In this document: positions 30,011 through 50,168 of the stretch, piece after piece | Position numbering within the stretch: position 1 is the stretch's first letter | How the letters are laid out: each line of letters starts with the position of its first letter | Assembly: GCF_029201565.1 (NCBI RefSeq) | Contig: NZ_CP104002.1 | Span: forward strand, 3,117,001-3,181,000 | Direction of reading: 5' to 3' | From: Devosia sp. SD17-2 | GTDB taxonomy: Bacteria > Pseudomonadota > Alphaproteobacteria > Rhizobiales > Devosiaceae | Length of the DNA: 64,000 nucleotides | Made by a program: the position numbers and the translations under genes | Notes under the pieces: model-generated | Database searches by the model: none | Told to the model about the DNA's origin: nothing | Seen by the model: the letters and a program-made list of their open reading frames with translations, nothing else

Positions 30011-30047
30011 ACCCCTCCTAGCCTCCCCCTGATAGGGGGAGGGACTG
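30011..30047. repeat. Dispersed palindromic repeat, copy A
   Basis: CCTCCCCCTGATAGGGGGAGG forms the palindromic core, preceded by ACCCCTCCTAG. A shorter related piece (CTCCCCGTGATAGGGGGCGAG) follows at 30057-30077. It belongs to the family listed at 36316, 36391, 46346, 47466 and 58191. Confidence 0.75.
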
Positions 30048-46517: not shown

Positions 46518-47465
46518 ATGACCAAACTTGCCCAGTGGCTCGAGACGCAGACTGATGACCGTGAACTGGCCAGCGTGCTCGTCAGCATGGCCCGATCCGG
46601 CGCGGAAATCGCCGAGGTGTTGCGGCAGGCGCCGATTTCCGGGCAGACCGGGCTGGCCGGGGCGACCAATGTGCAGGGCGAGCACCAGAAGGCGCTCGAC
46701 ATCATCTCGAACGACATTGTTCTCAAGCACATAGGCGAGAACACTGCGGTTTCGATTCTGATCTCGGAAGAGCTGGATGAAGCGGTTCAGTTCGAGACTC
46801 AAGGGCGGTTCATCGTTGCCACCGATCCGCTGGATGGGTCTTCAAACCTCGACGTAAACGTCACTGTGGGCACGATCTTTTCGGTGCTGCCGGCAGCGGG
46901 TGGGATGCTGCAGAAGGGGACCGCGCAGGTTGCTGCGGGTTATGTCGCCTATGGCCCGGCGACGAGCCTGGTGCTGCGGATCAACGGGCCGGTGGCGGTG
47001 TTTACGCTCGACGGTGCGGGCGAATGGGTGCTGACGGTTGAAGCGGCCAAGGTGCCGGAAGCCTCGGGCGAATTTGCTATCAATACCGCGCGCGAGCGGT
47101 TCTGGGATGCGGCGACGCGCGGCTATGTCAGCGAGAGCGTGGCGGGGGAAACCGGGCCGGCCGGCAAGCGCTACAACATGCGATGGGTGGGCTCGATGGT
47201 GGCCGACATCCACCGCATCCTGATGCGCGGCGGGATCTTTATGTATCCGCTCGACAGCGAGACCGTGAGCAAGGGCGGGCGGCTGCGGTTGCTCTATGAG
47301 GCGAACCCGATGGCGTGGCTGGTGGAGGGCGCTGGTGGGGCGTCGACCACGGGGACGCAGGGCATTCTGGAGGTGGCGCCGACGGGCATTCATCAGCGCG
47401 TGCCGGTGATTTTGGGCTCGGCCGAGGAAGTGCGGCGGGTTGAGGGGTTTTACGCCCGGGGGTAG
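46518..47465 (+). CDS. fbp: Fructose-1,6-bisphosphatase, class I
   Basis: 315 residues. The metal and phosphate site TDPLDGSSNLDVN is complete, preceded by LISEELDEAVQF. The C-terminal active site includes RYNMRWVGSMVADIHRIL and GGRLRLLYEANPMAWLVEGAGG. It hydrolyses fructose-1,6-bisphosphate to fructose-6-phosphate in gluconeogenesis. ATG 46518 has GAGGAG 7 nt upstream; the longer frame is unlikely. It stands next to glutamate dehydrogenase, consistent with growth on amino acids that needs gluconeogenesis. Confidence 0.95.
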   Translation: MTKLAQWLETQTDDRELASVLVSMARSGAEIAEVLRQAPISGQTGLAGATNVQGEHQKALDIISNDIVLKHIGENTAVSILISEELDEAVQFETQGRFIVATDPLDGSSNLDVNVTVGTIFSVLPAAGGMLQKGTAQVAAGYVAYGPATSLVLRINGPVAVFTLDGAGEWVLTVEAAKVPEASGEFAINTARERFWDAATRGYVSESVAGETGPAGKRYNMRWVGSMVADIHRILMRGGIFMYPLDSETVSKGGRLRLLYEANPMAWLVEGAGGASTTGTQGILEVAPTGIHQRVPVILGSAEEVRRVEGFYARG

Positions 47466-47504
47466 CACCCCCACCTAACCTCCCCCTGAAAAAGGGGGAG
47501 GGAC
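47466..47504. repeat. Dispersed palindromic repeat, copy E
   Basis: CACCCCCACCTAA, then CCTCCCCCTGAAAAAGGGGGAG, and GGAC. It directly follows the fbp stop codon and directly precedes the IS110-type element. Confidence 0.8.
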
Positions 47505-47519
47505 AGATCGCGTTTTGGG

Positions 47520-47758
47520 CGGGTGTGGTGCAGGGAACGCGCTCCCGTCCTCGTATTTCGGCATCACCCGGCTTGTGTGGAGGATCTGTGCTTTAGTGGT
47601 GGCATCAGCCGGGTTGCGCATCCCGGCTGATGCAGTCAGGAGGCCGTTTTGTCCGGCTGGTTTGTCACAGCCGAGGACGAGCAAGGCCCTGTCTGCTCCC
47701 TTTGACCCCGAACGGTTGATCGGGCTGTTGCCCGCACCACAAGCCTGGGAGCAAGGTC
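47520..47758 (+). ncRNA. Structured 5' non-coding region of the IS110 element (possible bridge RNA)
   Basis: About 240 bp without a plausible gene precede the recombinase. It includes a perfect 12-bp stem, GCATCAGCCGGG / CCCGGCTGATGC (47602-47613 and 47622-47633), with loop TTGCGCAT, and further complementary GC-rich stretches. In IS110 elements the non-coding end is known to encode a bridge or seek RNA that pairs with donor and target DNA. Assignment here rests on place and structure; the RNA ends are approximate. Confidence 0.45.
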
Positions 47759-48700
47759 ATGATACACGACACCCTCTTCGTTGGCATCGACGTTTCCAAG
47801 ACGCATCTGGACGTTCATACCCATCCCGCTGGCAAATCCTGGCGTTGCAGCACTGGACCGGAGGCGCTCGCCGAGCTGACGCAGCGCCTGGCCAGACTGG
47901 GGCCGTTGGCCATCGGGCTCGAAGCCTCGGGAGGCTATGAAGCCCGCGTGGCCGAGAGCCTGCATGCCGCTGGCCTTGAAGTGCATGTTCTAGCCCCGGC
48001 GCGGATCCGCAGTTACGCGCGGGGTATCGGCCAATTGGCCAAAACCGACAAGATCGATGCCGCTCTGATCGCGCGTTATCTGCAGGCCGTGCGCGCCAGC
48101 TTGACCCCTTATGTGTCTGATCCGATCCGACAAAGGCTGAGCGCGTTCACAGCCCATCGGCGGCGGATCGTTGCGGAAAAGAGCGGCCTTGTCAGTCAGC
48201 TCGATACCATCGACGAGCCGCTTGTGCGCAGCCTGATCGAGGAGCGTCTGGCGGCCATCGCCCTGGAGATCAAACGCATCGAAGCGGCCATCACTGCCCT
48301 TCTCGCCGACAATCGCCAGCTCCAGCAGCGCCAGGCGCGGCTGCGGCAGGTGACCGGCGTCGGTCCGGTTCTGGCGATCGCCTTACTGGCCGACATGCCC
48401 GAGCTCGGCAAGGTCTCCGCCAAGGTGGCCGCAGCACTCATCGGCGTTGCCCCTTATGCCCGCCAATCGGGCGCATCGGATCGCAACGGCCGCTGTCTTG
48501 GCGGACGAAAACATCTGCGCGATATCGCCTACATGGCCGTGCTCAGCGCCATCAAGGTGAAAGACCCCGTTCTCGGCGGCTTCTATCAAAGACTGCGCCT
48601 GCGCGGAAAACCCTTCAAACTCGCCATGATCGCAACGGTGAGAAAACTCATCACAATCCTCAACGCCATCGCCCGACAGGAACCGGCATTCCAACAGTGA
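47759..48700 (+). CDS. IS110-family recombinase (DEDD transposase)
   Basis: 313 residues. The RuvC-like N-terminal domain starts MIHDTLFVGIDVSKTHLDVH with the first Asp, then LAIGLEASGGYEARVAESLH with Glu, and LAKTDKIDAALIARYLQAV with the DxxD part. The C-terminal transposase-20 domain carries LRQVTGVGPVLAIALLADMP and the catalytic-Ser region IGVAPYARQSGASDRNGR, and ends KPFKLAMIATVRKLITILNA. The gene is intact. IS110 elements lack long inverted repeats, so I cannot set exact ends; the left end should lie between 47505 and 47600 and the right end between 48700 and 48890. Confidence 0.92.
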   Translation: MIHDTLFVGIDVSKTHLDVHTHPAGKSWRCSTGPEALAELTQRLARLGPLAIGLEASGGYEARVAESLHAAGLEVHVLAPARIRSYARGIGQLAKTDKIDAALIARYLQAVRASLTPYVSDPIRQRLSAFTAHRRRIVAEKSGLVSQLDTIDEPLVRSLIEERLAAIALEIKRIEAAITALLADNRQLQQRQARLRQVTGVGPVLAIALLADMPELGKVSAKVAAALIGVAPYARQSGASDRNGRCLGGRKHLRDIAYMAVLSAIKVKDPVLGGFYQRLRLRGKPFKLAMIATVRKLITILNAIARQEPAFQQ

Positions 48701-48893
48701 TGTCCACGGTTGCTTGTCCGGGTGATGTCGTTTTTGGGGAGATGGATTGCCGGGACGAGCCGGGCAATGGCGATGGAGGGGATGGGGATTGCGGAGACCG
48801 GGCACGATTTTCGGATAATGATTGCAACGTTGCAGGACGAGCGTCTTGGCGATAGAACGCGGGGAGCGGCGGAGAGGCCGGATGGGAGCGAGC

Positions 48894-50168
48894 ATGACCG
48901 AGACGAAATCCACCCTGCCCAAGACCAATGCCGGCCCGTGGCAGAGGCGCCCGTTTCATCGCCAATATCTGATGCGGCAGGCCAATGATCTCTTCGATTT
49001 CTTCGAAGCGGCCTCGATCAATCCCAAGGGCGGGTTCTTTGAGCTGGACGATGAGGGTTTTCCGCTCAATGAGGAAAATTCCACCCGCCAGATCCACGTC
49101 ACCTGCCGCATGATCCATTGCGCGGTGATCGGGAGCCTCCTCGGGCGGCCGGGATCGGACGAGATCGTCGACCACGGGATGCAATATCTCTGGCACCACC
49201 ATCGCGACACCAAGAACGGCGGCTATGTCTGGTCGCTGGATGACAATGGTGTGGTGGATGGGCTCAAGCAGGCCTATGGCCATGCCTTCGTACTGCTGGC
49301 CGGATCGAGCGCGAAACTGGTCGGGCATCCGCTCGCCGATCAGCTGATTGAAGACATCACGCAGGTCATCAATAGCCGCTTCTGGGATGAGGCCGCCGGG
49401 GCGGTGCGCGAGGAGTTCGATACGGACTGGTCGCCGATCAGCAGCTATCGCGGCCAGAACTCGAATATGCATCTCACCGAAGCGCTGATGGCGGCGTATG
49501 AGGCCACGGGCAAGGAAGACTATCTGCGCAAAGCCGAGCGCATCGCCCAACGCATCATTCGCGACAATGCGGTGCCTCTTGGGCATCGGGTGGCCGAGCA
49601 TTTCGACGAGAACTGGGGTCTCGACAAGAGCTACAAGCACGAGAACGAGATGTTCCGCCCGTCCGGGACGACGCCGGGGCACTGGCTGGAATGGGCGCGG
49701 CTGCTCTACCAGCTCTGGGTGCTGGGGCGGAAACAGCATGGCTGGATGACGGACGCGGCGCGCAATCTCTTCCGGACATCCATCGACCTCGGCTGGGACA
49801 ATGTCCATGGCGGGTTCTTCTATACGCTGGACTGGAATGACCAGCCGGCGATGCGCGAAAAACTGTGGTGGCCGGTGGCGGAGGCCATCGGGGCGGCGGC
49901 CTATATCTCGGCCTATGATCATGATGATTATTTCCAGACTTGGTATCGTAAGCTCTGGGACTTTGCCGAGAACCATGTGATCGACCATGATCGCGGCGGG
50001 TGGCTGAGCGAGCTCAAGGAAGATCTGACCCCGGCATCGAACCTGTTTGTCGGCAAGCCGGACCTTTACCACGCGCTGCAGGCCTGCCTCATTCCGCTCT
50101 ATCCGGCGACGGGGAGCCTGACCCAGGCCATCATCGAGGCGGACCACACCGAACGGCCGGTCCGCTAG
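48894..50168 (+). CDS. AGE-family sugar isomerase/epimerase
   Basis: 424 residues, an (alpha/alpha)6-barrel of the N-acylglucosamine 2-epimerase superfamily. Motifs include STRQIHVTCRMIHCAVIGSL, YGHAFVLLAGSSA, RGQNSNMHLTEALMAAYEAT and PSGTTPGHWLEWARLL, with His residues placed as in YihS-type aldose-ketose isomerases (mannose, sulfoquinovose). It interconverts a hexose and its ketose; the true substrate is unknown. The start is ATG 48894 with GGGAG upstream (an alternative ATG is at 48882). The 48701-48893 stretch before it holds the IS110 right end and no gene. It is followed by a strong terminator. Confidence 0.85.
   Translation: MTETKSTLPKTNAGPWQRRPFHRQYLMRQANDLFDFFEAASINPKGGFFELDDEGFPLNEENSTRQIHVTCRMIHCAVIGSLLGRPGSDEIVDHGMQYLWHHHRDTKNGGYVWSLDDNGVVDGLKQAYGHAFVLLAGSSAKLVGHPLADQLIEDITQVINSRFWDEAAGAVREEFDTDWSPISSYRGQNSNMHLTEALMAAYEATGKEDYLRKAERIAQRIIRDNAVPLGHRVAEHFDENWGLDKSYKHENEMFRPSGTTPGHWLEWARLLYQLWVLGRKQHGWMTDAARNLFRTSIDLGWDNVHGGFFYTLDWNDQPAMREKLWWPVAEAIGAAAYISAYDHDDYFQTWYRKLWDFAENHVIDHDRGGWLSELKEDLTPASNLFVGKPDLYHALQACLIPLYPATGSLTQAIIEADHTERPVR

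Follow-up and report, generated by a model that had tools for sequence, protein, structure and literature searches.

An IS621-like IS110 element of Devosia sits inside REP-like palindromes and carries a predicted bridge RNA whose guides change with the target

Introduction

Bridge RNAs of IS110 elements have already been described, as have the way they covary with targets, the insertion of such elements into REPs and their natural retargeting (PMC11208160, PMC11187229, PMC1525189 and PMC11208158). The locus analysed here raises the question of whether the non-coding DNA ahead of an IS110 recombinase gene encodes such an RNA and, if so, which sequences it would recognize. It lies in a 64,000-nucleotide stretch of the Devosia sp. 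SD17-2 genome (hereafter the window; positions 3117001-3181000 of a 4.23 Mb genome in one contig, G000). A previous reading of these letters alone (the sequence-only reading) had proposed that the structured region upstream of the recombinase gene is a bridge RNA. We find that the element is an IS621-like IS110 insertion sequence, and it looks like a new example of a known mechanism; we give the bridge-RNA mechanism as a whole a probability of roughly 93%. The element itself was not found in the literature on Devosia IS110 and palindromic insertion sequences, in a search outside which most subscription papers fell. Coordinates are those of the window, and features lie on its plus strand unless stated otherwise.

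Results

The element and its ends are fixed by 15 copies

The recombinase gene (47759-48700) encodes an intact protein of 313 amino acids, as the sequence-only reading had recognized, and matches Pfam DEDD_Tnp_IS110 (E 3.1e-19), Pfam Transposase_20 (E 2.7e-14) and NCBIfam IS110 (E 4.6e-54). A DEDD recombinase with a Transposase_20 domain and an SG motif is characteristic of the IS621-like group of the IS110 family. The only solved chains found for it were those of ISCro4 (E 5.6e-24) and IS621 (E 7e-22), and in the alignment with both chains residues D11, E55, D97, D100 and S237 line up with the GID, IEA, KTD..D and ESG residues of IS621, the catalytic residues of which are given as D11, E60, D102, D105 and S241 (PMC11208158).

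A DNA search of the element's own genome with window positions 47300-49000 as query returned 73 matches; these comprise 14 full copies, an internally deleted copy that accounts for two matches, REP fragments, and the hairpin matching itself. The full open frame is kept in 14 copies, and all 15 share the same junctions, with the left sequence GG-CT-TGTGTGGAGG and the right sequence ACGGTTG-CT-[TC]GTC. The base following the left CT is always T, while that following the right CT is T in 10 copies and C in 5. Since this T/C variation is confined to the right of CT, the crossover can be placed at CT, the IS621 core, next to which the IS621 top strands are cut according to PMC11208158. The element therefore runs from the core CT at 47572-47573 to that at 48713-48714 and measures 1,141 bp (47572-48712 if the core is counted at the left, 47574-48714 if at the right). 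Its long non-coding end, the leader (47574-47758), extends over 185 bp from the junction to the start codon, and its right end (48701-48714) over 14 bp including the core, an arrangement typical of the IS621-like group. Comparing copies, a route that the sequence-only reading had suggested, thus settled the ends and moved them from the 47505-48893 proposed there; the gene-free upstream DNA shrinks from some 240 bp to about 185 bp, and positions 48715-48893 are host DNA, comprising the right half of a split REP followed by an inverted REP.

The internally deleted copy (L015/L016; G000 4101332-4102263, minus strand) has 902 bases between anchors that are 1,134 bases apart in the full element, and has lost nothing of the leader or of either end. 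Such a copy might be non-autonomous and mobilized in trans.

The target is a split REP-like palindrome

The element is inserted inside a REP-like palindrome, type ATTGCCCGG-CTTGT-CCGGGCAAT, which it splits into the two halves that flank it. The left half (CATCACCCGG, 47562-47571) is the left arm of the split REP, a flank common to the 15 copies in four variants; the right arm (TGTCCGGGTGATG, 48715-48727) was delimited by the copy junctions. A draft genome of the same species (G054) has the uninterrupted site CATCACCCGGCTTGTCCGGGTGATG at this locus (L198). Insertion therefore took place at a short core without target duplication. In G054, ends of the same element were found in the neighbouring REP, which is inverted (48746-48769, minus strand), and there the element has the opposite direction (L198 end, L199 start).

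The genome of the window also contains 33 uninterrupted REPs matching the form CCSGGCYYGTCCSGG. The core is CC in 8 of these and CT in the rest, which divide into 15 with CCCGG and 10 with CCGGG. Fourteen of the 15 occupied sites fit this form, all of them CCCGG with CT; the remaining one (L008, GTCTGGG) was left out of the occupancy count. Occupancy was thus 14/29 for CCCGG REPs with core CT versus 0/18 for the others (one-sided P 0.0002, with REP classes that were defined after the list had been seen). The exact site CATTGCCCGGCTYGTCC is empty at 7 places and holds 11 of the 15 copies. A supposed extra site at G000 1824494, checked as a lone left end, proved to be only a REP variant. Targeting of CCCGG with CT is a preference, not a rule, because among six G054 left ends one is found in a REP of the CCGGG kind, which mismatches the left target guide described below.

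A different palindrome, CCTCCCCCTGAAAAAGGGGGAGG, lies to the left of the element (47479-47501). We took it to be the repeat that the sequence-only reading called copy E, as it stops short of the start coordinate given there, 47505. That reading was right in kind in linking the element to REP-like repeats; the neighbour belongs to another family, however, and the repeat named is probably not the target, the element being inside a different palindrome. The CCTCCCCCTGAAAAAGGGGGAGG family has four places in the window with both exact arms and one with an imperfect arm; this second palindromic family (CCTCCCCCT-GGGGGAGG) occurs at 30022, 36328, 36404, 47479 and 58204. In another genome of the genus (G014), an IS110 element with a recombinase 37% identical sits in palindromes of the second family: CCTCCCCCT stands on the left in 9/9 copies compared (copy L145, without the exact left-end string, was left out), and CAGGGGGAGG on the right in five of the nine, the other four being visible only to CTCA. 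Therefore, two IS110 elements of one genus use different palindrome families.

The leader has a conserved structure of the IS621 kind

The leader contains a perfect 12-bp hairpin at exactly 47602-47633, as had been noted from the letters alone, and positions 47596-47758 fold to -82 kcal/mol, better than 200/200 dinucleotide-preserving shuffles (z -4.13). Five leaders, namely those of the window, Devosia limi, G040 (partial), Shinella kummerowiae (L051) and a Novosphingobium MAG (L052), align almost without gaps. A five-helix structure, drawn by hand along IS621 lines and then scored on these leaders, had 98.8% of 173 cells paired and four pairs changed on both sides, each value being reached by 1/500 shuffles; when partners were slid by 1-3 columns no doubly changed pair remained. 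The count of further pair types did not exceed that of shuffles (91/500). In the drawn structure, the hairpin would form the 5' stem-loop of the predicted bridge RNA and holds three of the four doubly changed pairs (3 of its 12 pairs). It is followed by a predicted target-binding stem and loop (47635-47693), the stem of which, 47635-47645 with 47685-47693, has 97.8% of cells paired and no doubly changed pair; it hardly varies, and the copy in the window has one mismatch. A predicted donor-binding stem and loop (47694-47753) comes last, with an inner stem and an outer stem (47694-47700 with 47747-47753) that holds the fourth doubly changed pair. This order of 5' stem-loop, target loop and donor loop agrees only in part with the minimum-energy fold of the single sequence, in which the left target guide pairs with the right target guide and the first bases pair with the donor guide. 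An Rfam search of 47300-49000 at E up to 10 gave eight weak matches, all under their gathering scores, so the covariance-model route that had been suggested yielded no family at threshold.

The 3' arm of the donor stem, GGGAGCA (47747-47753; region 47747-47758), stands directly before the start codon. It may include the ribosome-binding site, which a folded bridge RNA could then mask in a longer transcript.

Four leader segments fit both sides of target and donor

Within the predicted loops, segments complementary to the junction sequences, which the sequence-only reading had proposed to look for, were found for both sides of target and donor in IS621 order. The left target guide (TTTTGTCCGGCT, 47647-47658) pairs with 9/10 bases left of the core in 14 copies and 10/10 in one, and the right target guide (GGACGAG, 47675-47681) pairs 7/7 with the right targets of 15/15 copies, wobble included. 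On the donor side, the left donor guide (ACGGTTG, 47712-47718) recurs exactly at the element's right end (48706-48712), and the right donor guide (CACCACAAG, 47735-47743) pairs discontiguously with its left end CTTGTGTGG. The donor loop thus pairs with both ends of its own element, and in G086 and G041 ACAGTTG appears in right end and leader alike; the donor-side fit was read from direct matches in these three elements. All four guide segments in order were seen in 0/20,000 shuffled leaders, a descriptive count rather than a test, as the motifs were set after the real ones had been seen.

The occupied targets of the 15 copies differ at six positions. At five of them (-8, -7 and -6 on the left, and bases 3 and 7 to the right of the core) the guide has U or G and both target variants pair; at the sixth, -9, the guide does not pair with both. 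A tentative extension, which we regard as rather doubtful, is that wobble-rich guides let one element occupy several host REP alleles and that retargeting among relatives follows the REP family of each host, IS110 guides thus recording host-repeat turnover.

Guides change with targets among relatives

One prediction of the bridge-RNA model is that the target loop pairs with both target halves and changes with the target. In close relatives the scaffold is kept while the left target guide changes with the target. The D. limi guide TCTTTACGGGCT goes with targets TGCCC[AG]CGGGCT (4/6 left ends) and CACCCTCGGGCT (2/6), and its right guide GGTCAAG with CTTGACC (5/5 right ends); the left guides of Shinella, TTCTTTCGGGCT, and G086, GATGGCCGGGCT, go with targets CATCCTCGGGCT and CATGGCCGGGCT, respectively, and that of Novosphingobium, TGGTATCGGACT, with TCGGCCCGGACT, the weakest fit (7/10). 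The G040 element (L190-L193, L202, L208) was seen in two kinds of REP, the TTGCCGGGCT-TGTCC and TCCTCGGGCT-TGACC types, with one intermediate guide.

When 11 distinct target-guide pairs, drawn from five types, were compared at fixed positions, agreement over the four bases nearest the core was seen in 11/11 own pairs and 12/44 swapped pairs. Of the 110 guide-target cells, which are not independent since the types are related, 61 were identical and 14 were transversions, and the others comprised 30 wobble cells and 5 of the reverse sense. That wobble cells outnumber the reverse ones (30 vs 5) is predicted by pairing with the bottom strand, and not by mere likeness. For the right guide, mismatches averaged 0.2 in own pairs (n=10) versus 1.06 with other guide sequences (n=36), and the own-pair mismatches were of one base each, in 1/4 G040 right targets and in the single Shinella right target.

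A place-free test was run on 16 hand-chosen types, whose left ends were fixed from multiple copies or from resemblance to elements having them, using 9/10 G014 copies; all four word lengths tried are given. Own pairs exceeded swapped pairs in 14/16 types at 7 nt and again at 8 nt plus the core C (0/20,000 permutations each), in 13/16 at 8 nt (P 0.00005) and in 10/16 at 10 nt (P 0.004). A cruder automatic survey of relatives, with ends set by a motif rule, showed no signal (own over swapped in 7/13, P 0.27): of its 137 loci, 18 were dropped for having no donor motif, 73 no left end and 7 for being too short, and the 39 kept included 26 redundant ones, leaving 13 non-redundant elements. Ends were also guessed from how well the right donor guide fitted (132 candidates, 72 rows), but many were visibly wrong and this approach was dropped. 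Sampling of the order (397 genomes) and of the class (385 genomes) revealed no relative beyond the own genome at E up to 1e-60; plasmid records gave no DNA match, and the 1,204 with protein matches were all below 60% identity.

These data are consistent with the leader acting as a bridge RNA, a role well supported by what can be read from the letters. Lack of a shared structure, or free variation of the non-coding region, had been named beforehand as speaking against such an RNA; the five leaders instead share the paired cells and doubly changed pairs given above, and the leader is conserved except for one stretch that changes with the target.

Joined ends would assemble a promoter-like sequence

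Joining of the right end, core and left end would read TTGCTT, 17 bases and TTTAGT, the latter a -10-like hexamer at 47592-47597 with a putative function in the circle; in the chromosome the first hexamer is CGGCTT. A -10-like hexamer (TTTAGT, TTTACT or TTAAGT) lies at 17 bases in 6/7 types, G086 being without it (ATAGGC). IS621 is described as having a promoter across its joined ends (PMC11208160), and we infer from the sequence that one may be assembled likewise here.

Discussion

The ends, core, target and uninterrupted site of this element, the matches of guides with target and donor and the change of guide with target are all observed. The remaining steps are modelled on IS621. Excision would join the right end, CT and the left end in a circle and thereby assemble the TTGCTT-17-TTTAGT promoter, from which the leader would be transcribed into a bridge RNA of about 155-165 nt. 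The donor loop would pair with the element's own joined ends, and the DEDD/Ser recombinase would then exchange strands at CT, so that the element enters the REP hairpin loop in one orientation and without target duplication. RNA production, the circle with its promoter and the chemistry of strand exchange are thus proposed by analogy.

Could the protein alone recognize the REP hairpin, through DNA structure or sequence, with the structured leader only regulating the recombinase gene, for example by hiding the ribosome-binding site of that gene? In favour of this, the palindromic target could itself form a hairpin, the last leader stem sits just ahead of the start codon, and ISPpu9, another IS110 element, is reportedly regulated by small RNAs and a 5'-UTR structure (PMC8450116). 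Such recognition leaves unexplained, however, why both target guides change with the target, why wobble is in excess and why there are donor guides at all; moreover, CCGGG REPs are equally palindromic and yet unoccupied in the own genome (0/10). We judge this explanation very improbable. Barely credible is the notion that the likeness of leader and target is a functionless relic of captured REP sequence. A 12-base resemblance between the left target guide and the left REP half would suit a relic, but the right target guide is the reverse complement of the right half and is placed after an inserted hairpin, two further segments fit the element's own ends in IS621 order, and the corresponding place holds different guides in relatives from other hosts. 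Recognition through a bridge RNA is therefore the reading that we retain.

The value of the locus lies in a natural experiment for bridge-RNA targeting, in which near-identical scaffolds from one genus (the window's genome, D. limi and G040), Shinella and Novosphingobium carry different guides and meet different targets. It adds 15 insertions into polymorphic sites together with a same-species uninterrupted site, allows the part played by wobble pairs in guide tolerance to be tested, and points to a further recombinase, one with a GC-rich REP target, that could be studied in the laboratory.

Among known systems, the closest is IS621 of Escherichia coli (IS110 group; PMC11208160 and PMC11208158), whose recombinase is homologous to the one found here over nearly the full length, the latter being shorter (313 versus 328 residues in the IS621 PDB chain). 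Following the account of IS621 in PMC11208160, both have a leader ahead of the gene (core to start codon spans 187 bp here; the left end there has 191 bp), a CT core, a REP target and, by description of the IS621 RNA, a 5' stem-loop, target loop and donor loop with a discontiguous right donor guide. The same account sets them apart in guide sequences, in the REP used and in the right target guide, longer here at 7 nt including the core, the 3' sides of the IS621 loops having 4-7 nt. The IS1111 group has a related recombinase family, but its long non-coding end is described as lying downstream of the gene and its subterminal inverted repeats as 7-17 bp long (PMC11208160), unlike the upstream leader and 14-bp right end found here; the one inverted match seen by eye was GTGGA/TCCAC, of 5 bp. 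In ISEc21, and in ISMch6, a relative of it that has been redirected, the non-coding DNA ahead of the gene is described as supplying guide bases for either strand of the target, and ISMch6 illustrates natural redirection through changed guide bases, but their target is linear and their transposase larger (PMC11187229). Insertion inside REPs, the likeness on which the comparison by description rests, is recorded in PMC1525189 for further IS110-family elements: ISRm19 of Sinorhizobium meliloti (4/4), ISPa11 of P. aeruginosa (6/6), and ISPpu9 and ISPpu10 of Pseudomonas putida (7/7 and 7/7).
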